From positions 3,658,001-3,722,000 of the forward strand of contig NZ_CP130701.1 of NCBI RefSeq assembly GCF_030553075.1: a stretch of DNA of 64,000 bases, read 5' to 3'. The notes under the pieces are model-generated. The model saw only the letters and a program-made list of their open reading frames with translations, was not told the DNA's origin and made no database searches. How positions within the stretch are numbered: position 1 is the stretch's first letter; each line of letters begins with the position of its first letter. Of the stretch, positions 2,584-29,370 are shown in pieces. This stretch comes from Halomonas sp. I5-271120 (lineage in GTDB: Bacteria; Pseudomonadota; Gammaproteobacteria; Pseudomonadales; Halomonadaceae). Both the position numbers and the translations under genes were made by a program.

Positions 2584-5500
2584 ATGACCAGCAGGGATGA
2601 CACCATTGAACGCACCATGACACGGATGGAGGAACTGCGCCCCAAAATCCTAGACACCACGCTGCGCAATAGCCTGCTCAACACACAGTTTCGGGAAAAG
2701 ACCCAAAGTCACATCCGTGTCGTCGATGAGCTGCCTGCGGTCTTACACGAGAAACTCTCAAGCGGCGCAAAGATGCTGCTTGATCCCCTGCCAGCACTGG
2801 AAGAAGAGCCCTTAGACGAGCAAACAGATGACTTTCGCCAGGGCTTGGCAGAGTTTGAGAATACTGACAGCGACTATCAGGAGACGCTAGCTAAGATAGA
2901 AGGCATGGAGCTAGCGGAGACAGACAAGGAAGTCCGCATTCAGGAAGCGTATCGCGATCTCAAAGATCGAGTACGTGCCCATCTCCATATGCCACGGCGT
3001 CATACCGACCATCGAACCGTCAAGCTCGATGAGCATGCCCGTATTCATGGCATCAATCCCGACTATGACATGCCGCACCCCGAAGACAGCCATGAAGATG
3101 GACGGCACGAGGATGAACGCATCCAAACCTTGATGCTGTCCGAGCGTCTGGAACGACGCTGCACTTCCATCCGCAGCCGGGGGCGGGCTTATGAGCAGGA
3201 GACGGGGGTGCAGGTGCTGCAATGTGCGATGGGGTTCCTGGAATGGCAGGACAACGCCAGCGACCGAATTGCCCTATCTCCGATACTTCTTTTGCCGATC
3301 AGCCTGTCGCAGAAAAAAACCTCCAAAGGCTTGGAATTCTGGGTCGAGGCCAGCGACTCGCTGATCAGTAACGCCGTACTCAAGCACAAGATGCTTAATG
3401 ACTACGGCATCGAACTTCCTCAGCCAGATGCCGAGGCACCAAATATCGAGCACCATCTGGCTGAGATAGAAGCTCTCAAACCCAAGTCATTTCGCGTGTG
3501 GCGTATCCGTCGCTTCGTGGCCATTGGTGTTTGGCAGGCGGTGAGTCTCGCCATGTATGAGGATCTCAATCCTGATGATTGGCCTTTACCTGATGGCGCC
3601 CTGATCAGCCGCTTCCTCGGTGGCCGAGAACTGAGCGGTGAAATGGGCCAATTCGCCGATGAGCACGAGGTGGACGATCCTGAAGTCGAGTCCCAAGTGC
3701 CCTTGCTAATTTCTGATGCCGACTCAAGTCAGTTCAGCGCCATGGTCGATGTCATGCGTGGCGAGGATGTCGCTTTGGAAGGACCTCCAGGGACAGGTAA
3801 GTCGCAAACCATCGTCAACACGATCGCTGCAGCGCTGGCGGCTGGCAAGAAGGTCCTGTTCGTGGCGGAAAAGCTGGCTGCTCTCGATGTGGTGCGGTCA
3901 CGCCTAGAGGCTATGGGACTTGGCGAATTCCTGATGAACCTTCAGGCCAGTCAGAACACTCGCCAGCAAGTCCGTGACTCTGTGGTTCAGCGACTCGACT
4001 TGCGCCCATCGCAAGCTCGAGATCCCCATGGACTCGACGAGAAAATTCAAGAATTCACTCAGGTTCGTAACGCCCTGGCTGACTATATTCGCTTGATTGG
4101 CATGGTGTTCCGCGATACTGGCTTTACCTATCATCATATCCTCGGCCAGGCGATTGTAGCCCAGGCCACCTTGGAAGACCTTTCTCCGGAACTTAGGCGC
4201 TTGACGCTACCACACGTGGCCAACTTAAGCGGCCATCAGATCGACCAGCTTTATCGAGATTGCCAAGACTATGCAGATATGGTCACTCGCATGGGCACTC
4301 GAGATAGCGAGTGGAGCTTCGTCAATTGTGGTCCACTCGATCGTTTCCGGCGGGACAACCTACTGGATATGGCAGATGAGGCACGCCAGTCGTTGGAAGC
4401 AGTCCTTGAGGCCCGCGAAGGCTTGGCCTCATTAAGCTTACCTGTCTTGGATATACCCACCACGAGTCGGCTTCGAGATGATCTCAGGGAAAAAGGGCCA
4501 CTGCTCCAACAAACCGACATCGACCTTGTCGAGCGCCTACTGCCTGACTCAGCCCGAGAGACAATAGCCAACTTTCGTCAGATCCTCGCCGACATCGAAG
4601 CCCTACTCCCCCGGCTTGAACTGTTGGCCGACCCTCACAGCCCTGAGGCCGTCTCTCAGCTCGACAATCTGCTCACAGGACTGGATAGCTTAGGGCAGAT
4701 CTATCTCGACGATTGTCAGCTGGACGATCAGGTGGAAAAGCATCGCCAGAGGGAAAGTCAGTTCGATGCCATGAGCGAAGGGTTTGACCGTCTGGTTCGT
4801 TTCCAGCCTCAACTCGCACATCTGCCCCTGCGCCTGTTATCGGCCATGCTCTCCATTTTACGTGAAACACCCTCGTATATTTTGGAGCAGCGCGGCCAGC
4901 AGTCAATCTCCGAGACCGAGATCCATGCCCTGCCGGCAATTGAAGCACAGCTGTCTATCATCGAGACCGAACGGGAAGTCCTGAGCGACACATTCGACTT
5001 GAGCCTAGCCACCGATCTAAAGGCATTGACCAATCATCTCACTCAACTCCGCACTAAAGGCGCCCTATCCTTCCTTTCTGGTGCCCTGCGCCAGGCTCGC
5101 AAAGCACTGAAGGGATTGCTTCGTGACCCTAACAGTTATAGCGATGATCAGATGCTGGTGGACTTGCCGCCTCTTATCGACCACCTCAAGCGCGTCGAGG
5201 CATTTGTAGAGGATAAACAATATAACCAGTTTAGCTGGTTTAGAGGCATACAGACTGATGTAGCTACCATCCGTAAGCGCATTGCCTATCAGCAGCGTGC
5301 TCGTACGCTAGCCCGGGAGGAAGGGCAATCAGTGGTCAGTGTAGTGTTGCTCGACGAGCATCCCGAGGTTCTGATTGGCATGAGAGCCTTGGCAGAACAG
5401 CTCGATACATCTTCGCTTCCAAATGACGTTTTGTCGGGCACCTATCAAGATCTCGAACAGTTGCGCCAAAAAGCTAAGCAAACTCGGGAAGAGGTCGATA

Positions 5501-7806
5501 AACAGGTCGTTGAGCTTCGCAATACGCGCATATCGTTGTTATCAACCAAATCAGCGATCTCCCGGCAAGCAATTGCCGATACTCGGGAAAGTCTAATTAC
5601 TTGGCAGGAGGCACGAGACAAGGCTACCCAACATGAGGCGGCATCGCTGTTAGGTGGGCATTTTGAAGGTCCCGCCACCCCCTTAGAGATCGCCAGTCAG
5701 GAGGTAGCCTTAGTTCAATGGATCATTGGGTACCCCGATGCCTTGCACAACCCCCTGCTATCGTTATGGAGGCAAACACCCGCAGCACTCTGTGAGGCCT
5801 TAGATATCTATTTGGCCCGGCATACAGCTCATTTAGAGCGTGTGGCAGTTCTGGTTGACACAACCCGAGTTCCTGCCGAGCAGTGGAGATGCAACCCTTA
5901 TGATGACAGCGCCGTCGACGCCTTACGCCGCATGGCCCAGGATGCCGAAGGGCTGGATCACTTTGCCCAGCGTAATACCCAGAGAGCTCAACTTGAAATG
6001 TGGCATGTCACACCGCTGGTGCTCGCGCTGGACCACCAGGAGATCGCCGCCGAGGTATTTATTGATACCGTAAAGGCAGTAGTTGCGATGACCCTTGCGA
6101 AGGCCATCTACGACACCCACGGGCATCACCTGTCTCATTACCGAGGACAGAGGCTGAATGATCTACGAACCCGGCTTGCTGATCTTGATCGAGAAATTAT
6201 TCGCCTCAACCGAGAGCGCTTGCGCCATCTGCTAGTAACCAACGCCCATCCACCGCAGGGCAATGGTAGTTTCGGCAAGCGGGCCAAGGTTTCAGAAATG
6301 ACGGATTTGGCACTCTTGCAGAACGAGGCCAAAAAACAGAAACGCTTCCTTCCCGTACGCGACCTGACTGCCCGCGCTGGCACAGCGTTACGCGAACTTA
6401 AACCATGCTGGATGATGTCTCCTCTGACGGTAGCGAAGTATCTTCCAAAAGTAGAAAGCCTCTTCGACTTGGTGATCATCGACGAAGGCTCACAGATGCG
6501 ACCCGAAAACGCCTTAGGGGCGATGCTACGTGCCAAGCAATCCATGACAGCCGGGGACACCAAGCAGCTCCCCCCCTCGAGCTTCTTCCGCAACCTTGGC
6601 CAGGGGGATGACGACGACGATGAAGATACCGTACAAGAAGAGTCGATCCTCGACCTTGCCAACCTAACGCTAAATTGTCGCCGACAATTACGTTGGCATT
6701 ATCGCTCCCGCCACGAGAGCCTGATAGCCTTCTGCAACCGGCATATGTACAAAGATGACCTGGTAGTTTTCCCAACAGCGAATGCTAATGACCCACGTTT
6801 AGGCGTCAAGCTAGTACCCATTGAAAATGGCACCTATCACAAAAGCTATAATCGTGAAGAAGCTAAGGTCATGGTCAACCATATCCTTCAGCATATGAGC
6901 GAGCACCCTGATCGCTCACTCGGTGTCGTAACTCTCAACAAGGCCCAGCAGACCTTACTCGAGGACGAATTTCAGGCAATGGCGCAAACTTCGGCTGTCG
7001 CCCAGAGTTATGAGAAGCATTGGGAGGAAGCACGACATGGCCTGGAAGGCTTCTTTATCAAAAACCTCGAAAATGTCCAGGGCGATGAGCGTGACGTGAT
7101 CTTTATCGGCACAGTGTTCGGTCCGGATCCTGGCTCAGGTAAGGTACATAACCGCTTTGGACCGCTGAGTGGGAGGGCTGGCAAGCGCCGACTCAACGTT
7201 CTTTTTTCTCGCGCAAAGGAAAAGATTGTCACCTTCACGTCAATGAAACCTAGCGACATCCGAGCTGAGCCAGATAAGAGCCCAGGAGCGCACATGCTCA
7301 AGCAATGGTTGGAATATTCCGCCACCGGGCAGCTGGATAGCGGATTCTCTACGGGAGCCGAGCCTGATTCAGAATTCGAGCGCCACGTGATAAAGGTGAT
7401 CGAGGGAATGGGCTTCGAGGCCGTGCCCCAGGTCGGGGTGCAAGGTTTCTTTATCGACATTGGCGTGCGTCACCCTGATTACCCCTACGGCTACTTGCTA
7501 GGGGTGGAGTGCGACGGTGCTACCTACCACTCCTCACGTTCTGCCCGTGATCGGGACAGACTGCGCCAGGAAATTCTGGAGAGCAAGGGCTGGCATCTTC
7601 ACCGCATCTGGTCGACCGACTGGTTCACCGACGCCCTCGGCGAAAAGGAGAAGCTCAAGGTGTCCATCGAGAATCGTCTCTCAGAGGCGGTGAGGCAGAT
7701 GCCAAAGAGCGAAAGCATTCCATTAGATGAAGAAGATGATAGTCATAATACCATCCACCTTTCCCAATCAAATGAGGCTGAAGCACAGCGACCATTATTT
7801 AATTGA
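2584..7806 (+). CDS. hheA: Hhe-type antiphage protein: DUF4011 - SF1 helicase - Vsr/DUF559-like nuclease fusion
   Basis: A 1740-residue single-gene defence protein. Domains in order: N-terminal DUF4011 (from about residue 12, RMEELRPKILDTTLRNSLLN); a split superfamily 1 helicase with Walker A EGPPGTGKSQ at about 399 and DEAD-like box VIIDEGSQ at about 1297, separated by a very long helical/coiled insert; later helicase motifs (NVQGDERD, SRAKE) near 1500-1545; and a C-terminal Vsr/DUF559-like PD-(D/E)XK nuclease at about 1595-1690 (ECDGATYH, then Trp/Arg-rich HRIWSTDWF). This architecture matches the Hhe system reported in a survey of prokaryotic antiviral genes. It is presumed to recognise and cut invading DNA or RNA; the trigger is unknown. 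It stands alone between IS elements, has its own AT-rich promoter region and a 3' hairpin, and looks intact. Confidence 0.88.
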   Translation: MTSRDDTIERTMTRMEELRPKILDTTLRNSLLNTQFREKTQSHIRVVDELPAVLHEKLSSGAKMLLDPLPALEEEPLDEQTDDFRQGLAEFENTDSDYQETLAKIEGMELAETDKEVRIQEAYRDLKDRVRAHLHMPRRHTDHRTVKLDEHARIHGINPDYDMPHPEDSHEDGRHEDERIQTLMLSERLERRCTSIRSRGRAYEQETGVQVLQCAMGFLEWQDNASDRIALSPILLLPISLSQKKTSKGLEFWVEASDSLISNAVLKHKMLNDYGIELPQPDAEAPNIEHHLAEIEALKPKSFRVWRIRRFVAIGVWQAVSLAMYEDLNPDDWPLPDGALISRFLGGRELSGEMGQFADEHEVDDPEVESQVPLLISDADSSQFSAMVDVMRGEDVALEGPPGTGKSQTIVNTIAAALAAGKKVLFVAEKLAALDVVRSRLEAMGLGEFLMNLQASQNTRQQVRDSVVQRLDLRPSQARDPHGLDEKIQEFTQVRNALADYIRLIGMVFRDTGFTYHHILGQAIVAQATLEDLSPELRRLTLPHVANLSGHQIDQLYRDCQDYADMVTRMGTRDSEWSFVNCGPLDRFRRDNLLDMADEARQSLEAVLEAREGLASLSLPVLDIPTTSRLRDDLREKGPLLQQTDIDLVERLLPDSARETIANFRQILADIEALLPRLELLADPHSPEAVSQLDNLLTGLDSLGQIYLDDCQLDDQVEKHRQRESQFDAMSEGFDRLVRFQPQLAHLPLRLLSAMLSILRETPSYILEQRGQQSISETEIHALPAIEAQLSIIETEREVLSDTFDLSLATDLKALTNHLTQLRTKGALSFLSGALRQARKALKGLLRDPNSYSDDQMLVDLPPLIDHLKRVEAFVEDKQYNQFSWFRGIQTDVATIRKRIAYQQRARTLAREEGQSVVSVVLLDEHPEVLIGMRALAEQLDTSSLPNDVLSGTYQDLEQLRQKAKQTREEVDKQVVELRNTRISLLSTKSAISRQAIADTRESLITWQEARDKATQHEAASLLGGHFEGPATPLEIASQEVALVQWIIGYPDALHNPLLSLWRQTPAALCEALDIYLARHTAHLERVAVLVDTTRVPAEQWRCNPYDDSAVDALRRMAQDAEGLDHFAQRNTQRAQLEMWHVTPLVLALDHQEIAAEVFIDTVKAVVAMTLAKAIYDTHGHHLSHYRGQRLNDLRTRLADLDREIIRLNRERLRHLLVTNAHPPQGNGSFGKRAKVSEMTDLALLQNEAKKQKRFLPVRDLTARAGTALRELKPCWMMSPLTVAKYLPKVESLFDLVIIDEGSQMRPENALGAMLRAKQSMTAGDTKQLPPSSFFRNLGQGDDDDDEDTVQEESILDLANLTLNCRRQLRWHYRSRHESLIAFCNRHMYKDDLVVFPTANANDPRLGVKLVPIENGTYHKSYNREEAKVMVNHILQHMSEHPDRSLGVVTLNKAQQTLLEDEFQAMAQTSAVAQSYEKHWEEARHGLEGFFIKNLENVQGDERDVIFIGTVFGPDPGSGKVHNRFGPLSGRAGKRRLNVLFSRAKEKIVTFTSMKPSDIRAEPDKSPGAHMLKQWLEYSATGQLDSGFSTGAEPDSEFERHVIKVIEGMGFEAVPQVGVQGFFIDIGVRHPDYPYGYLLGVECDGATYHSSRSARDRDRLRQEILESKGWHLHRIWSTDWFTDALGEKEKLKVSIENRLSEAVRQMPKSESIPLDEEDDSHNTIHLSQSNEAEAQRPLFN

Positions 7807-12416: not shown

Positions 12417-13271
12417 TTATTTCAGGCTTCGTCGCAACCCAATCCCCTTTAGCAGCGGATGCCTGACGGCGTACTCACATAATCCAAAATTCCGATGTTC
12501 GAGCAAGAACTCATCGATAGCTTGGAGTGCTTCCTCGTCATCATGACCCCACAAATCTTCGATCACCACTGTGCCCCCCTTAGACACAAACTCAACCCAG
12601 GCCCCCAACGCGGCTAGGTTCCGGCGAAGATCGCCGCCTAGGTCGATCACGATCACGTCAAAAGTCCGCGTAATTTCGCACACAGAGGTCAGGGTCTCTT
12701 GACTCAGAGCGTCACCAATCAGCATATGCTGCCCGACCGCAGACCAGCATGACCCATCGATCGCCGGCTCTTGGGGATCGGTATCAACCGAAACCACAAG
12801 CCCCCCCCCCAGCAGGTGCAGCACGCTAGACAGAAACCAGACTCCGCCTCCACGCCCTCTACCGAGTTCGAGCACTCGCCGGCCTGCAGCGCCCATGAGC
12901 AGCTCCTGCAGATAGAACAGGTCGCTCGGCATCTTGACCACAACCTCACCCAGCCAACAGTAGTCTCGCTCGGTCTCGATCTCATGCCGCCAATACCAGC
13001 GCTGATAATCGGCAGCCAGCGCTGCTTCCGAGCCTGATGCTGGACCATGACCTGCGAGCGTGTCGGTGAAGGGCTCGACGAGCACGCCCAGCTCAACCCA
13101 CTGCGCGAAGCCGGGCGGGGCGGAACTAAATCCCAAGAACTCACGCAGATACTCGTAAGTTGCACGATCGACACAATGCCGCTCTCTGCGGACAGCGTGC
13201 TGGACTTCAATGAAGTCGCCATAGTCCACAAACACAGCAAAGCGGCTCAATCGAAGCGGCTGCCCGATCAC
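12417..13271 (-). CDS. CmcI-like (cephalosporin hydroxylase family) enzyme with extra N-terminal domain
   Basis: 284 residues, last gene of the operon; its GTG start overlaps the upstream stop codon. From about residue 85 it resembles the CmcI/rhamnosyl O-methyltransferase family: WYWRHEIETERDYCWLGEVV, then KMPSDLFYLQELL, then a Rossmann SAM-binding region VLELGRGRGGGVWFL and the acidic VIVIDLGGD. Members act as O-methyltransferases or accessory hydroxylation factors. The first ~80 residues (RFAVFVDYGDFIEVQHAV... YEYLREFLGF) are unusual for CmcI. They look like the small winged domain at the front of SagB-type and other peptide-modifying enzymes; this is inferred from pattern only. A run of ten Gs on the coding strand (12801-12810) could make expression switchable. 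Confidence 0.65.
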   Translation of the reverse strand: MIGQPLRLSRFAVFVDYGDFIEVQHAVRRERHCVDRATYEYLREFLGFSSAPPGFAQWVELGVLVEPFTDTLAGHGPASGSEAALAADYQRWYWRHEIETERDYCWLGEVVVKMPSDLFYLQELLMGAAGRRVLELGRGRGGGVWFLSSVLHLLGGGLVVSVDTDPQEPAIDGSCWSAVGQHMLIGDALSQETLTSVCEITRTFDVIVIDLGGDLRRNLAALGAWVEFVSKGGTVVIEDLWGHDDEEALQAIDEFLLEHRNFGLCEYAVRHPLLKGIGLRRSLK

Positions 13272-14023
13272 CGCAGACTCCGCCGAGCAAGAACAAAGGG
13301 GCTAATAGAGTGCAAAAAAGCTTCACCGCGCCAACTGTCTAACATCTCAATGTTTACAAAGCCGATTTCGGCCAGGATCGAGGTTAAGAGCCTCACGTCG
13401 GCTACACGGAGTTCGTGACGCTCCTTGAAATGCTCCGCTGTGGAGACACACTCAAACTCGTACTCGGCGAGCAGCTTCTGAGGCCCGTCAGACCAGAAAC
13501 GGTAGTGCAGCACGATGTCTTCGGGACCACCAGGGCCGCTCTCTAAGTCAACGTTGAACGACGGCATCTCAGTGGCCGCACTTGGTGCGTGGGCAACCTG
13601 CAAGACCAGGCCACCACCAGGGCGCAACATCCGATAGCATCGTCGAAACACGTCACGTAGCTCGTCGAGGTCTCGGCAATAGTTGAGCGACCACGACAAC
13701 GACACGAGACAATCGAACACTTGCTCATGCTCGAGCTCCTGCATCGGCAGAAGCTGCACTCGGTTTCGGCCGACACGTGCACGCGCACACTCAATCATCT
13801 TGGGTGCTGAGTCAATGCCGAGCGGGTCGAGTCCGGCCGCTAGGGCCTTCTCGAGTAGTACACCGGTGCCACAGCCGAGGTCGAGGAGCCGACCTTCACC
13901 ACCGACTCCACATGCTTGCTTGATCACAAAGGCGTGATCATGGACGTAATGGTGAGGCGGCGTGTGCAGATCGTAGCGATCACCGAACTCGCCATAGAGC
14001 TTGTAGTTAAGGTCGTCGCTCAT
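13268..14023 (-). CDS. Class I SAM-dependent methyltransferase
   Basis: 251-residue methyltransferase. Motif I is LLDLGCGTGVLLEKAL, followed by GIDSAPKMIECAR and the post-motif LRPGGGLVLQVAHA. A Ser-rich SLSWSLNYC segment falls where the acceptor site usually lies. The ATG at 14021-14023 overlaps the TGA of the UvrA-like gene (ATGA), so the two are translationally coupled; an in-frame upstream extension would run inside the neighbour and is rejected. The substrate is not predictable; it probably modifies the product of this operon at O, N or C. Confidence 0.8.
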   Translation of the reverse strand: MSDDLNYKLYGEFGDRYDLHTPPHHYVHDHAFVIKQACGVGGEGRLLDLGCGTGVLLEKALAAGLDPLGIDSAPKMIECARARVGRNRVQLLPMQELEHEQVFDCLVSLSWSLNYCRDLDELRDVFRRCYRMLRPGGGLVLQVAHAPSAATEMPSFNVDLESGPGGPEDIVLHYRFWSDGPQKLLAEYEFECVSTAEHFKERHELRVADVRLLTSILAEIGFVNIEMLDSWRGEAFLHSISPFVLARRSLR

Positions 14024-17000
14024 ACGTCTCCTTCTGTGAGCACTGGCATATTGGTAAAGGCTCTCGCGACTGCGGGGGCGAGGATCAACCAAGAGCCACC
14101 CGCGCCGAGGTGGCACAGTTTCGTAGAACCGAGCTTTTCAGTGTTGAGCAGGGTGAGGACCTTGATGAGGCGAGCTTGCCGTCGCTCGCTGCGGGCATTG
14201 GGGGGTACTAGCTTCTTAAGTGCATAGCAGAGTTCGGCGACAGTGCCCGTTGTTAGCCAATCAGCGTAGCTGCGGCCAGCGAACTCGAACAACAACACGT
14301 GCCGGCGCAACCCCAGACCGGCACACAAAGGGCAAGAGATCATCTCCTCAGAAGCCAGCACCGCTTCGCGCCATTGCTGCGAGCCGCGCGAGGCATTATC
14401 ACGCATATACGCGAACAAGCCATCCCAGCGTAGCCAGCTCGCTACTTCCTTGGGATTGCTCTTAGGTGTCCGCAGGAATGACCCCGGGCCGGGACGAGCC
14501 CAAAAACCGTATAGCAGCAGCTTCCACTCATGATCGGAGAGCTGAGCAATAGGGCGGCCAGCTGGCCAAAGTTCTTCTTTGACCATGCGTCTAAAGAAAG
14601 GCAAAAGGACGTTGCGATGGACACCTTTGAGCACATCGAGTGCGCCCGGATGTAAGAAATCATTGTCCTCGACCGGCCTTCGCACATCGCCTATCAACAA
14701 GGTAAGGTCATAACTGAGCACCTGCCCGCGCCCCATGCAGCACGGACACCGTCCCCGCAAAGTGTGCCTATCAAAGTCGAAGGCCGAAGCCGAGTGCGGC
14801 CCGACCAAACCTCGCTCGAGATCTACTGGCCGTTTAAGACAGGTTGCCAGCACCTTCGCCCCTCTTTTCAGTTCAATATAGCCACCGCCGAGTAGCAACG
14901 CGCTATCGATCAGGCGAGCTCGCACGTTGCGCTCGGTTGCATCATCGCAAACGAGTGGACCACCAGCTGCGCGGAGTTGGGCGAGGTCTTCTTGCTCTAT
15001 CCACTCTAGGCCCTGCTTGGACAACTGCTCGCGACGCTCCTGGATCGCACTAACTGGAACCTTGTCCCCCCATACATATAACTCGCGAATCAGTGGATAA
15101 ATGAGCAACCGAGCGTCTGGTGCGCCTTCCCAAGCATCGAGCATCGAAGTTACGTCAAAACGGGGATCCATTGCGCACTTGCACTCGAGCATAAGCGAGG
15201 CGAGTTCACGATCAAGTCCTCCATACTCAAGCATACGACGATCACCCAAGCCCTGCGCATCAACGACCACCGCAAGCTGCTTCCCCTCGTGTGCGAGTTC
15301 TTGCTCCTGTGGAGGCAGGTCGTACCCGAGTAACCTTCGTAACCAACGAAGGGCACTTGCGGCTTCAGCAGAGCTAGGTGACGCATCGGGTTCGTAGCTT
15401 GCTGATCGGCGCGATAACTTAGCCGGCTTCGGCGATGCTCGGAGCATGCGACCGCTTGGAGTGTCCTGCTCGCGTAACTGGTTTGGGGTGCCCTCGGCTA
15501 TTAGCCGCCCTCCTCGCGGACCACTTTCCGGACCGAACTCGACGACCCAATCTGCTGCAGAGACTAGCTCAAGGTTGTGCTCGACAACTACGAGCGAGTG
15601 CCCTTTTCTAACAATGTGATCTAAAGTTCGGAGCAAGCGTGCGACGTCGTCGCGATGCAGGCCCGCCGCCGGCTCGTCGAGCACGAATATCAACCGCTCA
15701 CGCGAGCGTTGGTTCAGTTCGCGTGCAATCCTTAGGCGCTGAAGCTCACCGCCGCTTACGGTGTCGAGTCGACGCCCGAGTGAAAGGTGACCGACACCGA
15801 GTTCGTCGATAGTCTCCAACAGTGGCAGAGTGCCATCGAACGCGGAAAATGACTCAGAGCAGAGGCTTGAGATAGACCGCTCAAGGACTTGCGCGATATC
15901 AAAGCCGTCGTCGAGGACTGCCAGTACCGAAGAGCCAAACCGGGCGCCCCCGCAACTCGGACAGGTAACCCAAAGGCCTGCCTCATCAATCTCGCCAATA
16001 CCTAGACACTGATCACATCGCCCCTCGCCGGCGTTGAGACCGAAGTCACTGGCTCGTAGCCCGATAGCGGCTGCCGAAGGCAACTTGGCATAATGTTGTC
16101 GCAGCGGCTCGGCCAGGCCCAAAAACGTAGCAACAGTGCTCCGCCTGTTCGCTGCGGGGGCCCGCTGATCTAGAGCGACAAGGCCCTCGAGATGTTTGGT
16201 ACCAGAGAGAAATGTCCATCGTCCGCGGCGAACGTCGAAATCCAGCACTTCCGGCGAGGTCTCGAACGAAGCGGCAAGGGCGGGAACCAGCGCTCCGCGA
16301 ACGAAGCTCGACTTGCCCGACCCGGATACACCAACCACGCATACGAAGTGCCCGAGGGGAATCTCCACGTCTACGCCCTGGAGATTGTTTGCCCGGGCAC
16401 CCTTGATTTGAAGCTTCGGCCCACGCTCTTGTACGGCGAGGGGCTCCCGAGTGAGCCTAGCATCAGGTTGCCACCAACTATTGGGAACCTTACCCGCGTG
16501 GACGACAGTGCCGCCATGGGGGCCGGCACCAGGGCCGAGCTCGACAAAGAAGTCGGCCGCTGCAGCCAATCGGTGCCGATGTTCGTTAAGTATTAGGCTA
16601 TGTGTACCCCGTAAACCGGCTAGAGTTGCCGAAAGTCGGTCGAGATCTTCATCATGTAAGCCGCGGGCAGGCTCGTCGAGCAACAGACACAGACCAGCAT
16701 GACGACCGTCAAGGGTGGCCGCCAAACGCAATCGCCGCGACTCTCCCTCGCTGACGTCCAACATTCCGCGATCACCACTTATGTGATCTAGGCCAACGCC
16801 CACAAAGCTCTCGGCAAGGCGATGAAGCTGGGCGAGATAAGGACCAGCCTCCTTAGGCAGTGACTTTGCGAGGGCGGATTCGGGCGCGCAGAGGACCGAT
16901 AGCTCATCGAAGGTGTACGCCAGGAGCTGATCTATTGAAAACCCTCCGAGTCGTAATGCACTAGTCACACCGGACCAACGACTGCCACAACAACTGGGAC

Positions 17001-18273
17001 ACGGCCCTTCGTCTACCAGGAAAGCTAACCGCTCAGCGGTCACGCCGCGCTTTCTTACCCGCTCGAGGATCGCTGAGCGAAACCCATCGAAACGGCGAGG
17101 AATGCTCATCTTGTGCCCACTACCTAGCTCGCGGTCAACGATAAGCTCTTCACCCGCCCCTTCGATGACCAACCGACGTGCGTCCTCGCTAAGCTTGGAC
17201 CAGGGCTGATCGGGGCTGAAGCCCCTCACTCCACGCAACCCTTCAATCGTCTGGTGCTGAATGTTGACGTACTTATAGTTGTTAGTTTGCCACAACGCGA
17301 AGGCGCCCTCATGCATGGACAAATCGGGACGCACAACCAGCGAATCTATGTCCACAGTAATACTTCGCCCAAGTCCATGGCACTCGGGGCACGCACCGCT
17401 GGACTCATGCTCCGGCGCGTTGAACGACAAGAGATGCTCGCTTGCTGGTTGATAGCGTAGCGGGTCTGCTGGTATCACCCAGTGTTGTCGGGAATCAATC
17501 GCGGCCACTTCGGCCCCCTCAAGCTCGAGAAAAACACGTCCTTCGCCTGCATCGAAGGCGAGCGACAGCAACTTTTCGAGCTGCTGTTGAGTTGCCTTTG
17601 TCCGCTTGCCGAGGTTAACGCTGCCCACTTCGGTCTCGACGACGTGACGGGTTTTCGCGGAGAGAGGTTTGAATCTATCAAGCAGGACAATACTGCCCTT
17701 CTCCCAGCGTTTAGGAGAGTCGGTCTCGCTTCGCACGATAACACTAGTAAACCCCAGACCTCGCAGGCGCTCGGCCATCGCGACTCCGTCGCTAGTCACG
17801 AACGAGAGAGGGATTGCCCAGATTTTCACTTGGCCATGGTGCTGCTCCAGCAACCATGCTTTGTAGCTCTCCACGCTGGGAGCAGGAACTGCTTCGTCGC
17901 AGCACTTCGAGACAGGCACCGACCACCGGATGAACATCCGCCGAAGCAGAGAGAGTAGTCCACTTGCAGTACCGACTGTTGTCCTCGACGATGCTCGAAA
18001 GGCTCGTTGACCTAGGTGAAGAGTTGGCGGCATTCGACCCACGAATGCGTTACTCATCGGCAGGTCGAGGTGGTCCTGACCAACCCCAAGAAAGATCCTC
18101 AGCCGCAGGTTCCCCTCGCGAGCGAGCGTATTTGCAAGTAAGGAACTCTTGCCTGACCCCGAGACACCAACAACCATCGACACTCCCCCAACCGGGAAGC
18201 TAACGTCAACATCCTGAAGATTGTTGGCATTGGCGCCTACAACTTCGATAGTCTCAGGCTCTATTTGGGCCAT
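14020..18273 (-). CDS. Giant UvrA-like ABC ATPase with a third, ATPase-less UvrA-type module; candidate self-resistance protein
   Basis: 1417 residues, against about 950 for UvrA. Module 1: Walker A GVSGSGKS (36-43), zinc pairs CPEC (295-298) and CPSC (425-428), altered signature VSEGESRRLRLA near 507, Walker B LLLDEP (530-535). Module 2: Walker A GVSGSGKS (648-655), zinc pairs CDQC (753-756) and CPSC (771-774), signature VSGGELQRLRIA near 839, Walker B FVLDEP (863-868), switch His in VVVEHN. Residues ~960-1417 repeat the UvrA zinc/insertion region (CPCC 1176-1179, CPLC 1314-1317) and end in a decayed signature (HLGAGGSW), with no Walker A. UvrA paralogues such as DrrC protect producers of DNA-binding antibiotics. 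The ATG at 18273 lies 13 nt inside the upstream gene. Confidence 0.85.
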   Translation of the reverse strand: MAQIEPETIEVVGANANNLQDVDVSFPVGGVSMVVGVSGSGKSSLLANTLAREGNLRLRIFLGVGQDHLDLPMSNAFVGRMPPTLHLGQRAFRASSRTTVGTASGLLSLLRRMFIRWSVPVSKCCDEAVPAPSVESYKAWLLEQHHGQVKIWAIPLSFVTSDGVAMAERLRGLGFTSVIVRSETDSPKRWEKGSIVLLDRFKPLSAKTRHVVETEVGSVNLGKRTKATQQQLEKLLSLAFDAGEGRVFLELEGAEVAAIDSRQHWVIPADPLRYQPASEHLLSFNAPEHESSGACPECHGLGRSITVDIDSLVVRPDLSMHEGAFALWQTNNYKYVNIQHQTIEGLRGVRGFSPDQPWSKLSEDARRLVIEGAGEELIVDRELGSGHKMSIPRRFDGFRSAILERVRKRGVTAERLAFLVDEGPCPSCCGSRWSGVTSALRLGGFSIDQLLAYTFDELSVLCAPESALAKSLPKEAGPYLAQLHRLAESFVGVGLDHISGDRGMLDVSEGESRRLRLAATLDGRHAGLCLLLDEPARGLHDEDLDRLSATLAGLRGTHSLILNEHRHRLAAAADFFVELGPGAGPHGGTVVHAGKVPNSWWQPDARLTREPLAVQERGPKLQIKGARANNLQGVDVEIPLGHFVCVVGVSGSGKSSFVRGALVPALAASFETSPEVLDFDVRRGRWTFLSGTKHLEGLVALDQRAPAANRRSTVATFLGLAEPLRQHYAKLPSAAAIGLRASDFGLNAGEGRCDQCLGIGEIDEAGLWVTCPSCGGARFGSSVLAVLDDGFDIAQVLERSISSLCSESFSAFDGTLPLLETIDELGVGHLSLGRRLDTVSGGELQRLRIARELNQRSRERLIFVLDEPAAGLHRDDVARLLRTLDHIVRKGHSLVVVEHNLELVSAADWVVEFGPESGPRGGRLIAEGTPNQLREQDTPSGRMLRASPKPAKLSRRSASYEPDASPSSAEAASALRWLRRLLGYDLPPQEQELAHEGKQLAVVVDAQGLGDRRMLEYGGLDRELASLMLECKCAMDPRFDVTSMLDAWEGAPDARLLIYPLIRELYVWGDKVPVSAIQERREQLSKQGLEWIEQEDLAQLRAAGGPLVCDDATERNVRARLIDSALLLGGGYIELKRGAKVLATCLKRPVDLERGLVGPHSASAFDFDRHTLRGRCPCCMGRGQVLSYDLTLLIGDVRRPVEDNDFLHPGALDVLKGVHRNVLLPFFRRMVKEELWPAGRPIAQLSDHEWKLLLYGFWARPGPGSFLRTPKSNPKEVASWLRWDGLFAYMRDNASRGSQQWREAVLASEEMISCPLCAGLGLRRHVLLFEFAGRSYADWLTTGTVAELCYALKKLVPPNARSERRQARLIKVLTLLNTEKLGSTKLCHLGAGGSWLILAPAVARAFTNMPVLTEGDV

Positions 18274-19139
18274 GTAGGCTCGTCCCGTAGATGGAGAACA
18301 TGAATCTCCCGGGCTTTGAAGCGTCGAGGAAATTCCAAGTATTGGACCGTACAATCACCACGATAGTGGAGTGCGCGGACATTAGAAACTAATAGCGCGT
18401 CACCCACCCCAAGTTCGATTGGCTCGGACGCCGCAAGTGCAGCGTTGTGGATCGTGTCGAGCTGATATTCAAGTGTATCGGTGAAGCGAGCCCCGCGCCG
18501 CTCGGCCGCCCTTAGAGTCTCAGGGTGAAAACGAATAGTCGATTCACTCGCCATAATCCCGGACCAAGATCCTTGTGCACGCTCATCAACCATCTCAACG
18601 TTGTCGGTGAGCAGAAGCTGCAAAGCCTTGACGGCTCCGCGCCGTTGAAGTTCCGCTAGGAGTTCACAGAGCCGAACGACACGGACAACACCGTAACCCT
18701 CGCTCGGGTCAGGCGCTCGACAGTGGATCAAGGTTACATGCGGAGGCTCGTCAGCCGTACTTAAATCAGTATGGAAGTGGCCATCGCGCAAACTCTGAGA
18801 AAGCTCTGTGGTCCACGGAGACATCTTGAAGTGCTTGACGATCTTCTCTCCACGGTAAGTCTTGAACTCGGCATCTAATGCGAGTGCGAGAAGCAGCGAC
18901 GTGGTACCGTCTCCAAGTACAGGAAGTCCACGAATGACAGCGTGGTCGCGCATCATCCAAGTTCGAGCAAGATCTGCAACGAAAGCCCGCCAGTAGGGTG
19001 AGGCGAGTTCAGTAGCGAGCGCTCGTCGCTGCATGGGGACGAGCGCTAGTGCTTCGTAAAATTCAAGCGACCCACGAATAGCAAGGGCGATTAGGGTCTC
19101 TCTCACGGGAGTAGATAGCTTCAGCTCAGGAACGCTCAT
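18261..19139 (-). CDS. TauD/TfdA-like Fe(II)/2-oxoglutarate oxygenase
   Basis: 292 residues. The metal-binding HxD is in GHFHTDLSTADEPPHVTLIHC (about residues 120-140), and the distal His with a following Arg (ALHYRGDCTVQYLEFPRR) sits near the C-terminus. This spacing is normal for TauD/clavaminate-synthase-like hydroxylases, which couple 2-oxoglutarate decarboxylation to C-H hydroxylation or desaturation. Its ATG overlaps the stop of the upstream methyltransferase (ATGA), and its 3' end overlaps the UvrA-like start, placing it firmly in the operon. Probably a tailoring enzyme; substrate unknown. Confidence 0.75.
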   Translation of the reverse strand: MSVPELKLSTPVRETLIALAIRGSLEFYEALALVPMQRRALATELASPYWRAFVADLARTWMMRDHAVIRGLPVLGDGTTSLLLALALDAEFKTYRGEKIVKHFKMSPWTTELSQSLRDGHFHTDLSTADEPPHVTLIHCRAPDPSEGYGVVRVVRLCELLAELQRRGAVKALQLLLTDNVEMVDERAQGSWSGIMASESTIRFHPETLRAAERRGARFTDTLEYQLDTIHNAALAASEPIELGVGDALLVSNVRALHYRGDCTVQYLEFPRRFKAREIHVLHLRDEPTWPK

Positions 19140-19834
19140 TCTCGGTTCTCGAATCGAAATAGCAGCTTATGGCGGAATTGATGTTTGAGCAGCGCTCCGA
19201 CCGAAGGATACGAGAACGATCCGGATACACTCGGATCGTGGAATACCCAGCCGGTATCTCGTAGAGGACGAACCGAAGGTTTGAGCCCAGCGTGTGAACC
19301 TGCAGCCATCAATTCGAGTGGTGAGTGATCGTAGACAACATGACCCAGCTCTTCGAGTTCATGCTTCCAGTTGACCCACAATGGGTTTTCCGTGTGGCAA
19401 CCTAGGACTAAGTACGCAAAACGGCCTGGTGCGAGCACCCGACGTATCTCTGCCATCAGCCACGAAGGATCGCTGATATATTGCAGGATCTCATGACCAA
19501 GGATGAGGTCCACACTCGCATCGGGGAGCTCGGACCAGCCATCGGAACCAACCAATTGAATCTCGGTCGCGAAACGAGCGAGACGTTGGGCAGCCGCGCG
19601 TCTCGCGCTAATGAGCGGCTCTAGACCTATAAGCTTCGACGGCCTTAAGCGCTCATGCACCAATTCCAGAAGTCCACCACGATGACAGCCGATATCGAGC
19701 ACTGTCGCACCAGGCAATACGCAACCATCAGCCTGCACATGACCGACGAGCGCCCGCCAAAAATGAACATTGCGCTCGTCTAGACGCTTATCTTCCGCAT
19801 AATCGAAGAAGTGCGTACGAATGACCTCAGACAC
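19136..19834 (-). CDS. Class I SAM-dependent methyltransferase
   Basis: 232 residues. Motif I VLDIGCHRGGLLELVHERL, an acidic residue in KLIGLEPL, and the Methyltransf_11-type stretch DASVDLILGHEILQYISDP followed by RRVLAPGRFAYLVLGCH. The start is GTG at 19834, immediately after the TGA of the preceding gene (TGAGTG), so translation is coupled. It shares little obvious sequence with the second methyltransferase of the operon, suggesting two separate modification steps. Confidence 0.8.
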   Translation of the reverse strand: MSEVIRTHFFDYAEDKRLDERNVHFWRALVGHVQADGCVLPGATVLDIGCHRGGLLELVHERLRPSKLIGLEPLISARRAAAQRLARFATEIQLVGSDGWSELPDASVDLILGHEILQYISDPSWLMAEIRRVLAPGRFAYLVLGCHTENPLWVNWKHELEELGHVVYDHSPLELMAAGSHAGLKPSVRPLRDTGWVFHDPSVSGSFSYPSVGALLKHQFRHKLLFRFENRE

Positions 19835-20320
19835 TCAGGGACACCGCTGTGGAGCGCAGCTTCGGGCCTCGGCATCACCAGCGGTTGGATCGATCCCGAA
19901 GTGCGATACGAACAGGTTGAGTGACTCCTCGAACGTCGACTCGAGGTTTGCACGATCCGCCGCGCCCCGCATCCCAAAATACGGGAAGTGATGAAGATAC
20001 TCGCCAAACAAGATATCGCAGTCCGCGAAGTAAGCATGCGTGTCGAGGATGTGAGCGTGCCAAAATTCGTCGATCGGTCCCGAAGGGCAGATCTTTTTAT
20101 CTGGGTAGCGGATGTTGAGCGCGAGGAACTTGCGGTACAGGCTCTCAACCTCGTCGCAGTACTCGCGAGTCCAGCCACGTTCCTCCATTAATTTTCGCCC
20201 AAGCATGGAGAAGTCGAGTTGAGCGACCTTGTCTAAGGCAGCTTGCATCACCTCATCAATGCGTAGAAGTCTATGTGACTCCTCGAACGTGAGGGGGGCG
20301 CGGACAGCACTCTGATCCAT
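19835..20320 (-). CDS. Small GRDP-like protein heading the operon; possible precursor or carrier
   Basis: About 161 residues. The core YPDKKICPSGPIDEFWHAH, ILDTHAYFADC and HHFPYFGMRG matches the glycine-rich-domain-protein-like family (GRDP/DUF1399-type WHxHI motif), whose biochemical role is unclear. After this domain a short tail ends in the cysteine/proline sequence SCAPQRCP. The ATG at 20320 is preferred over the one at 20341 because GGAG lies 7-8 nt upstream of it. As first gene it could encode a structural partner, or a precursor with a folded leader and a C-terminal core; the latter is my inference. The upstream ~80 bp is AT-rich and probably holds the promoter. Confidence 0.6.
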   Translation of the reverse strand: MDQSAVRAPLTFEESHRLLRIDEVMQAALDKVAQLDFSMLGRKLMEERGWTREYCDEVESLYRKFLALNIRYPDKKICPSGPIDEFWHAHILDTHAYFADCDILFGEYLHHFPYFGMRGAADRANLESTFEESLNLFVSHFGIDPTAGDAEARSCAPQRCP

Positions 20321-20425
20321 AAAGGTCTCCGATATATCCATTAGCGTGACAATATTAGTTAAGACCTGGCTAACTTTATAGGATTAAGGACGGCATGTCA
20401 GGCCTCACGGAAAATCACCCCTTGG

Positions 20426-27627: not shown

Positions 27628-28983
27628 TCATGGGCTTTGCAGGGGTTCTTCGCCAGTTGTGTCAGTTCTGTCGGCACCCTGTCTCAGGGTTTTGCGTGCG
27701 AACACCTCAACCGCATCACGGGTATGGTCGGGGCTAAGGTGCGCATAGTGAGCAATTGTCGTCTGGATGTCTGAGTGCGCCATCAACTTTGAGACTGCCA
27801 GCAGATCCACGCCGGCCATCACCAGTTGACTGGCAAAGTGGTGCCGCAGGCTATATAGGTGCAGGTCATCAGGCAACCCCGCCAGCTTGCGCACGGTAGC
27901 CCAGGGTTTCTGCATCGCCGTCTTGTCCATACGCCGACCATTCCGCGCTGAGGGGAACACCAGCCCCGCCTTTGGTTCGCCCTGCTGATGGTGCCATCCC
28001 TTGAGGACGTCCAGGGCCGCCACTGACAACGGAAAGGTCATGGGATCGGGATGGTGATGGGCAGTTTTCTCTACCACCTTCCGAATAGTGGCAAAGGTCA
28101 GATTGACGTGTTCCCAGCGAAGCCCGGTGATATCACCCGGCCGGAAGCCGGTGTAGTACATCGTCAGAATCCACGGCTTCACGTGATCCACGTAAGTCAC
28201 GCCTTCAAGATCGGGCAGATAGGCCTTGCCATGACAGCGGCTGCTGCGCCGCTGTTGGCGCCGATCGTCTTGATACGCTTCCAGCCCAAAAAACAGTGCC
28301 TCAACCTCCTCATCATCCAGATAGCGGCGGCTAACTGCTTGATCGGCCATGGCATCATCGGACATGGCGGGTTTTTGCAACTTCACTCCAGCTAGGGGGT
28401 TGGCTGGTATCACCTTGCGCTCGGCCGCATGTACCAGCAGAGCGTGCATAGCGTCATAGGAGCGCTTGAGACTGCCAAAGGCCAGCGGCTTGTCCTTGGA
28501 CTCCTGCTCGGCCTGCCAGCGCTCCACTTGGTCGCGACTAAGGCTGCTCATCGATTTGTTGAGCCAACAGCTAAAATCTTTCTCGATTCTACGTAGCGTA
28601 CCCTTGCCGTCTTTCTTGCGATTCTGGAAGGCGGTATAAGGACCAGCCAGATAAGCACCTAGCGTTTGCTGCTGCTGGCGCTGCTCCTCGATCCTGGCCT
28701 CCTCCAGCACGGCTCGGGGGTCGCCGCCTTGGGCCACGATAGCTAGCGCTTCGATGGCATTCTCGCGAGCTTGAGCTGCAGTGAGGGTGCCGTAACGGCC
28801 AATAGTCAGGATGCGCTGGCGGCCAGTCTTGGTCCGGTAGTACAGTCGGAAAGTCAGTCCACGCTTGCCAGGGCGGACATGATAGCCTGCTAGTTCGGTG
28901 TCGAAGACGTTATCAGTCGGCGGCGCCTTCGCAAGCCGCTCAAGCGTTCTGGCTGTCAGCTTCTGATTGGTTTTCCCTGACAT
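27628..28983 (-). CDS. Tyrosine-type site-specific integrase of the island
   Basis: 451 residues from MSGKTNQKLTARTLERL. It begins with a DUF4102-like arm domain (ELAGYHVRPGKRGLTFRLYY), then a SAM-like core-binding domain, then the catalytic domain with Arg in YTGFRPGDITGLRW, the HxxR box HLYSLRHHFASQLV, and His/Tyr in MAHSDIQTTIAHYAHL. The full catalytic set is present. A proline tRNA 3' fragment lies ~160 bp from its start, indicating integration into that tRNA gene. The ORF could start upstream at 29049, but family alignment favours 28983. Confidence 0.93.
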   Translation of the reverse strand: MSGKTNQKLTARTLERLAKAPPTDNVFDTELAGYHVRPGKRGLTFRLYYRTKTGRQRILTIGRYGTLTAAQARENAIEALAIVAQGGDPRAVLEEARIEEQRQQQQTLGAYLAGPYTAFQNRKKDGKGTLRRIEKDFSCWLNKSMSSLSRDQVERWQAEQESKDKPLAFGSLKRSYDAMHALLVHAAERKVIPANPLAGVKLQKPAMSDDAMADQAVSRRYLDDEEVEALFFGLEAYQDDRRQQRRSSRCHGKAYLPDLEGVTYVDHVKPWILTMYYTGFRPGDITGLRWEHVNLTFATIRKVVEKTAHHHPDPMTFPLSVAALDVLKGWHHQQGEPKAGLVFPSARNGRRMDKTAMQKPWATVRKLAGLPDDLHLYSLRHHFASQLVMAGVDLLAVSKLMAHSDIQTTIAHYAHLSPDHTRDAVEVFARKTLRQGADRTDTTGEEPLQSP

Positions 28984-29145
28984 GCTGGCCCCGTGTTCTA
29001 GGTAGCAAATAGGTAGCAGTTGTAGGATAGAACAGGATACGCTGGGCAACGAAGAAGAAACTGTGGTACTGTTTCAGGCTATTGATTTTAATTGATAAAT
29101 GGTGCCAACTTGTTGCTCCTCATTTCTAGTCAAATACCGAGTGAA

Positions 29146-29194
29146 CGCAATGGGGTTGCAGAGGTCGCTGGTTCGAATCCAGTCGCTCCGACCA
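29146..29194 (+). other. Attachment site: 3' fragment of a tRNA-Pro(GGG) gene
   Basis: The sequence from the GGG anticodon loop (gcaatggggttgcag) through the T-arm (GCTGG TTCGAAT CCAGT), acceptor strand CGCTCCG, discriminator A and CCA is that of a bacterial tRNA-Pro(GGG). No D-arm or 5' acceptor strand precedes it; the left sequence is unrelated. This is an att junction: the island to the left integrated within the 3' half of the tRNA, and an intact copy should exist at the other end, outside this window. Confidence 0.85.
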
Positions 29195-29202
29195 GTAATA
29201 TT

Positions 29203-29235
29203 AAAAGCCACTCGGCCTTGTCGAGTGGCTTTTTT
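29203..29235 (+). terminator. Rho-independent terminator after the tRNA-Pro 3' end
   Basis: Stem AGCCACTCG / CGAGTGGCT followed by T5, 10 nt beyond the CCA. It is probably the native chromosomal terminator of the tRNA gene, supporting this side as the outside of the island. Confidence 0.85.
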
Positions 29236-29370
29236 CATTGTGTTACCGAATCTCACCCTCCCCCACAGTTACCAGCAGCAAACGCTACTCTCACTGAGCG
29301 CTCTGCTTTTTCATCCTGTACGTTTTTGGCGCCAGACCCGGGTGAAGGTCATTATCTTGGCAGGCATAAA

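Follow-up and report, generated by a model that had tools for sequence, protein, structure and literature searches.

The locus reported here resembles several described systems, each in a different part. In the class represented by DrrC, Ecm16 and MtrX, a UvrA-derived ATP-binding cassette (ABC) ATPase is encoded in a cluster of biosynthetic appearance, together with methyltransferases and oxygenases. According to PMC10413001, such UvrA-like genes mark clusters for DNA-binding natural products, and the UvrB-binding domain is missing from DrrC and Ecm16. In the crocagin pathway of Chondromyces crocatus (CgnA-CgnE, CgnL), which yields a ribosomally synthesised and post-translationally modified peptide (RiPP), a 2-oxoglutarate-dependent oxygenase is combined with the N-methyltransferase CgnL (PDB 7pd7), which acts on the crocagin scaffold once this is freed from the precursor CgnA, while the product is formed at the extreme C-terminus of that precursor (PMC10070186). 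In the current study we analysed a window of 64,000 nucleotides from the 4.04-Mb genome of Halomonas sp. I5-271120 (G000:C1:3658001-3722000), in which six minus-strand genes, designated A to F (12417-20341), join a UvrA-like ABC ATPase (D) to two class I methyltransferases (B and E), a TauD-type oxygenase (C), a CmcI-like methyltransferase (F) and a small protein with a cysteine-containing tail (A). Our preferred reading, to which we give a probability of roughly 0.5, is that A-F constitute a mobile intracellular cassette directed against phages (or other mobile elements) that yields a modified peptide or small molecule.

All six open reading frames (ORFs) are intact, and every one of the five junctions read from the sequence abuts or overlaps, which bears out the first-pass annotation of a tightly joined six-gene operon. 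The stop codon of A (19835-20320, 161 aa) meets the GTG start of B (19136-19834, 232 aa) with zero spacing; B and C (18261-19139, 292 aa) share an ATGA overlap; C and D (14020-18273, 1417 aa) overlap by 13 nt; D and E (13268-14023, 251 aa) again share ATGA, and E and F (12417-13271, 284 aa) share GTGA. The frame of A reaches 20341, and translation probably starts at 20320, as judged from its closest homologues. For D and E the likely starts are the ATG codons at 18273 and 14023, respectively; a TTG codon would lengthen D to 1444 aa, an extension that is not required, the closest D homologues being 1417 aa. The view that the operon was undescribed also held, in that no description was found in PADLOC, NCBIfam or the open-access literature. 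In open-access full text, which mostly excludes subscription literature, we found no account of UvrA joined to anti-phage, TauD, RADAR, defence-island or RiPP themes, and no NCBIfam match reached its cut-off (for D and E, among the best 25 matches). The assembly of A-F would thus appear to be new, while each enzyme comes from a known superfamily.

When 84,980 species genomes were scanned for a pattern taken from the C-terminal extension of D, 13 further loci (L003-L015) came to light, a number that is a lower bound. These lie in Pseudomonas (L003), Endozoicomonas, Methylovulum and Marinobacterium, and in metagenome-assembled genomes of Methylococcaceae, Chromatiaceae, Sulfuritalea, Rhodobacteraceae, Acidobacteriaceae, Acidobacteria gp4, Vicinamibacterales, Myxococcaceae and Gemmatimonadetes; the loci are partly non-independent, with L014 and L015 being 96% identical in E and L005 and L006 close relatives. 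In all 11 complete loci, which span three phyla, genes A-B-C-D-E occur in identical order on one strand, with a second TauD-type gene inserted between C and D in L015; L013 and L014 are cut within D and both have E. The A-E operon is also carried by a mobilizable Azospirillum plasmid, where a PhyH gene takes the place of F. Gene F itself is optional, being present in six of the 15 loci that have E (the 13, the window and the plasmid), namely the window, L003, L005, L006, L007 and L009, while a second TauD-type gene, related between loci and mostly below the Pfam cut-off, occurs in L005, L006, L008, L009, L010, L012 and L015. A distant version of the operon, A-C-B-pentapeptide-D, was observed close to a contig end (L060). 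When source entries of at least 7 kb in the protein database were compared (lists of 53, 78 and 63 entry lengths for A, D and E), 14 exactly equal lengths were shared by A and D, 15 by A and E and 22 by D and E, whereas jittered lengths gave means below 0.2. The genes also diverge in parallel: the distance matrices of A-E correlate over 12 loci at r 0.77-0.94, and in none of the ten pairs was the value reached by any of 2000 permutations, while those involving F correlate over six loci at r 0.89-0.94, reached by 8-23 of 2000 permutations; such correlation does not distinguish co-inheritance from shared host phylogeny. Relative to the Pseudomonas copy, the ratio of non-synonymous to synonymous differences (pN/pS) is 0.13-0.31, with synonymous sites nearly saturated, and the operon genes are under purifying selection. 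Since the gene order recurs in other phyla and pN/pS is this low, the operon is more than a chance arrangement, and we regard it as virtually certain that A-E form a conserved functional unit, albeit one that is rare and patchily distributed.

The first-pass annotation had described the operon as built around its UvrA-like gene, and D is indeed present in each complete copy seen. Operons lacking that gene, or relatives with the genes scattered, had been named as the pattern that would speak against that reading. No A-B-C set without D was seen in a check that covered loci recovered through D itself and those A relatives whose surrounding DNA was examined; matches to the A family outside the operon lack the remaining genes as a set, and the divergent operon L060 also has D.

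Known defence genes recur in the neighbourhoods of these loci. BrxA and BrxB of BREX flank L005, HsdM and HsdS of a type I restriction-modification system flank L006, and SIR2 and QatABC flank L011. RdrB of the RADAR system (RdrA/RdrB) adjoins the operon or lies one gene off in three acidobacterial loci and one myxobacterial locus (L008, L009, L010 and L012), accompanied by an AAA_16 gene in the RdrA position (L008, L009, L012) or by a related gene (L010); the PADLOC model of RdrA matches weakly in L008 and finds nothing in L009, L010 and L012. In the gemmatimonadete locus L013 an RdrA-like gene, weakly matched (2.9e-6), begins 24 bp past E. The RADAR models match none of A-F, and RADAR is thus a partner or neighbour rather than the same system. 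Established defence systems accordingly stand beside seven of the 13 loci (L005, L006 and L008-L012), with L013 as an eighth that has the weak RdrA match only. Elsewhere the signals are slighter: PDC-M63B in L004, a weak PD-Lambda-2_B match in L003, a weak PtuA match in L015 and three recombinase-like genes, judged by eye, in L014, while L007 has no flank. Next to the Azospirillum copy are genes for Vsr and a DNA cytosine methyltransferase, and an integrase gene follows at 5 kb on the downstream side; in the window a plus-strand gene at 2584-7806 (1740 aa; DUF4011 helicase and REase_MTES_1575 domain, PADLOC PDC-S37/Hhe), a candidate defence gene, lies 4.6 kb from the operon.

These matches come from 27 of 102 flanking ORFs of at least 80 aa, picked by eye as likely defence genes; given the unscanned remainder, the count of defence neighbours could only be too low. 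As a control, 91 ORFs of at least 150 aa were drawn from ten regions of the genome to which the window belongs and scanned, and these matched 20 PADLOC families, including mad3 (five members), mad8 (four), AriA, ShosA, PsyrA, mad2, PD-T4-2_B and LeoA. Since raw PADLOC matches are this common, the contrast rests on signature genes, and BrxA/BrxB, HsdM/HsdS, RdrB, QatABC and SIR2 were all absent from the control's 20 families. Comparison of flanking ORFs between loci showed recurrence of nothing but the RADAR genes and the additional TauD-type gene, and thus of no exporter or regulator. An association of the operon with defence islands is therefore highly probable, which lends support to the suggestion, made from the island location of the window copy, of a chemical defence against phage; an anti-phage function of the operon may be considered reasonably likely. 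As a separate observation, the RdrB-like protein of L008 matches RHS repeats as well.

Gene D encodes an unusual member of the UvrA superfamily. The canonical UvrA model TIGR00630 covers residues 36-960 of the 1444-aa frame with 563.5 bits, under its cut-off of 729.8, and a separate canonical UvrA is encoded in the same genome. As in canonical UvrA, both ABC ATP-binding sites are present in D, as they are in the DrrC/Ecm16 class: the Walker A motif GxSGSGKSS and the Walker B motif LDEP..GLH each occur twice, every residue being kept by 90% or more of the 79 homologues aligned, as are the zinc-binding CxxC pairs. D differs from canonical UvrA in its first ABC signature, which has diverged to S-x-G-E-x-R-R, and in its last 467 residues (aa 951-1417; 14020-15423), which hold a third copy of the zinc/DNA-binding insertion of UvrA and in which no Walker motifs were seen. 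This assignment comes from profile-profile comparison, both within the family (hhalign probability 98.2, E 3.8e-14) and against the canonical UvrA of the same genome (probability 96.9, E 2e-10). The extension is matched by 86 proteins among the 7995 candidates with the most shared words, which were those scored. At the UvrB-binding position the segment between landmarks has a median length of 261 residues in 76 homologues, against 243 in canonical UvrA, although the range of these distances includes at least one out-of-order match. The Pfam family UvrA_inter, which the whole-protein Pfam scan of D did not match, scores 13.6 bits on this segment (cut-off 23.3), while the family member P0033 passes the cut-off with 25.5 bits. 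Judged by length, D probably keeps a segment at the place of the UvrB-binding domain, in diverged form. Among solved structures, D aligns to canonical UvrA (2r6f) in one stretch with 419 bits, and to the 812-aa UvrA chain 7sh1, which we take to be Ecm16, in four stretches with 298 bits. The proposal that D is a self-protection UvrA of the DrrC type was therefore not established, since D, at 1417 aa, has a segment about as long as the UvrB-binding region at that position and adds a third DNA-binding module. A distant form of the extension was also noted in a 1066-aa UvrA-like protein on a Niallia taxi megaplasmid (L017:10249-13449), adjoining a gene judged by eye to be AlkD-like.

Protein A matches the GRDP-like family with 18.5 bits, under the cut-off of 22.7, and its listed homologues belong to the newer Pfam family PF27765. 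The protein ends in ARSCAPQRCP (19838-19867), directly followed by the stop codon, and 119 of the 120 listed homologues end in C-x-x-Q-x-C-P. The tail is predicted by a structure model to be disordered, and in this combination of homologous endings and predicted disorder it resembles a ribosomal scaffold or precursor; we lean slightly towards A having this role. Compared with crocagin, for which a ribosomal precursor with product formation at its extreme C-terminus is the likeness we propose for A, the differences are considerable: CgnA comprises 21 residues with the core Ile-Tyr-Trp, whereas A comprises 161 residues with a folded domain and does not have the form of a short precursor ending in Tyr-Trp. 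The crocagin cluster also contains the peptide-binding proteins CgnB and CgnE as well as transport genes, none of which was recognised beside A-F, where no dedicated search for them was made, and the word UvrA is absent from the text of PMC10070186.

Other members of the GRDP-like family were observed in varied settings. Proteins with tandem cysteine repeats in the tail (TAYCAGPH..., WCSLEAGK..., PAYCAR...) are encoded at L063:8272-10638 (G441), L054:7977-8552 and L053:7992-8630; these repeats resemble multi-core precursors, and no recognised modifying enzymes adjoin them. Another GRDP-like gene lies on the second contig of the Halomonas genome (G000:C2:221822-222196; L058:9248-9724), without the Cys tail and immediately ahead of a gene for a 442-aa protein; plasmids of Pseudomonas savastanoi and Maritalea also carry such a pair, in which the protein encoded after the GRDP-like gene is of similar length.

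Family scans place B and E among the class I S-adenosylmethionine (SAM) methyltransferases. The profile of E aligns with CgnL from end to end (304 bits, E 5.8e-90; single sequence E 4.8e-54). Members of the E family, each left out of the profile in turn, score 330-385 bits in separate runs that allow an approximate comparison only, so that CgnL looks like a near outgroup of the family. C matches TauD with 32.2 bits (cut-off 27), and its residues H123, D125 and H258 (HxD...H) are invariant among 13 sequences, which fits an Fe(II)/2-oxoglutarate enzyme; among solved structures clavaminate synthase 1 comes closest, with a match confined to a short stretch (E 2.1e-6). F matches RMNT_CmcI with 40.8 bits (cut-off 23.2). 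Of the earlier suggestion of a DNA-targeting metabolite or modified peptide, the modified peptide gains support from the tail of A and the kinship of E with CgnL, while the targeting of DNA by the product stays conjectural.

The conserved core, the exchangeable tailoring enzyme, the lack of a recurrent exporter in the flanking DNA compared, the defence neighbours and the patchy spread agree more closely with an intracellular chemical defence than with a secreted antibiotic or with DNA repair. In such a cassette, A would provide a folded scaffold whose flexible C-x-x-Q-x-C-P tail acts as substrate or carrier; C would hydroxylate this tail, the CgnL-like E would N-methylate it and B would methylate it, while the exchangeable enzyme (the CmcI-like F, a second TauD-type enzyme or PhyH) would add a variable decoration. 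By analogy with crocagin, oxidation and methylation of the C-terminal tail of A is the most likely chemistry. D, a UvrA-like protein with three DNA-binding modules, would scan DNA at the expense of ATP and act where the product meets DNA, and might either clear the product from host DNA or steer the response to invading DNA. Host protection is our tentative assignment for D, and a role as sensor or effector is a possibility held more tentatively still. We infer the modification chemistry, the anti-phage activity and the role of D. In its most specific version, which as a whole we consider rather doubtful, the proposal would be of a new class of defence in which the GRDP domain (PF27765) serves as leader scaffold, the Cys-x-x-Gln-x-Cys-Pro tail is made into a DNA-active peptide used within the cell against phage, the UvrA-like ATPase with its three modules tells host DNA apart from that of invaders, and the whole is wired to RADAR in some phyla. 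If true, this would bring prokaryotic immunity together with RiPP-type chemistry and an extended form of UvrA, fields that are rarely linked. The operon would become a candidate for a chemical defence, perhaps based on a peptide, that is carried in defence islands, and would give a lead on the function of the bacterial GRDP-like family, the papers listed for this domain dealing mostly with plants, while the repeated RADAR neighbourhood makes a partnership testable. Rules that seek genes for non-ribosomal peptide synthetases, polyketide synthases, terpenes or lanthipeptides would be expected to miss this operon.

A number of findings weigh against the preferred reading of a peptide- or small-molecule-based intracellular defence. 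The conserved His/Asp/Cys pattern of A would suit a metalloenzyme too. A relative of A in G394, encoded without the other operon genes (C is unmatched there and the extension of D is matched only weakly, within a 973-aa frame), ends in C-K-P-Q-K-C-R-stop, and relatives in G441, Variovorax and Cupriavidus carry repeated Cys tails beside neighbours without recognised modifying enzymes; given these Cys-tailed relatives outside the operon, the tail may have a metal- or redox-related function of its own. Neither a protease nor a RiPP recognition element came to light, no search having been aimed at either. The parallel divergence of the genes could in part mirror relationships among the hosts. The PADLOC control came from a single genome and was not genome-matched to the loci, and defence islands hold non-defence genes too. 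Finally, PADLOC-DB 2.0.0 has no specific model for A-F, with A and C matching nothing in it. Several ATPase models match D, among them mad3 (9e-46) and mad8 of MADS, and the methyltransferase domains of B, E and F are matched by mad2, the methyltransferase model of MADS, with B matching REase_II (0.036) as well; we read all of these as domain-level matches only.

It is unlikely that A-F represent a cryptic antibiotic or bacteriocin cluster, in which A-C, E and F would make a secreted DNA-active compound, D would confer self-resistance as in DrrC, Ecm16 and MtrX, and the island location would reflect shared mobility. The marker value of UvrA-like genes for such clusters, the kinship of E with a natural-product methyltransferase and the exchangeable tailoring genes are all in keeping with this, and it gains some weight because UvrA_inter falls below its cut-off in D. 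Yet the flanking DNA compared contains no recurring exporter or regulator, the neighbours are repeatedly defence genes, and D retains a segment sized like the UvrB-binding region (that of P0033 passing the Pfam cut-off) together with the extra module.

Slightly more improbable is a protein-based defence with no diffusible product, in which D would sense phage or foreign DNA, the Cys-tailed A would be its metal- or redox-active partner, and the methyltransferases and oxygenases would modify A or nucleic acid and so license or trigger the response. Defence-gene neighbours, the three DNA-binding modules of D and the Cys-tailed A-like proteins outside the operon would all be accommodated, but the exchangeable CmcI-like, TauD-type and PhyH enzymes and the CgnL-like E would be more typically found in the tailoring of small molecules. 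A role in DNA repair or stress, with D as a specialised excision-repair UvrA acting with the host UvrB and the enzymes removing or detoxifying alkyl or oxidative lesions, is highly improbable: D retains a segment at the UvrB-binding position and 2-oxoglutarate oxygenases can act in DNA repair, but the best solved relatives of C are clavaminate synthases, with AlkB absent from its six matches to solved structures, the methyltransferases and the small Cys-tailed protein do not fit, and so rare and patchy an operon is unmatched in a genome of the same species.

The operon region of the window has a G+C content of 55-59%; of ten regions of this genome used for comparison, nine have 63-67% and one has 53%. 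The extension of D had no match in the same-species genome (G059) or in the five same-genus genomes searched. Transposase-like genes, judged by eye, flank the operon on both sides. A 96-bp element at 29147-29242, for which ARAGORN and Rfam gave no match, lies just upstream of a gene judged by eye to be recombinase-like (27628-29049); it is a possible attachment site and is 95-97% identical in three related genomes.

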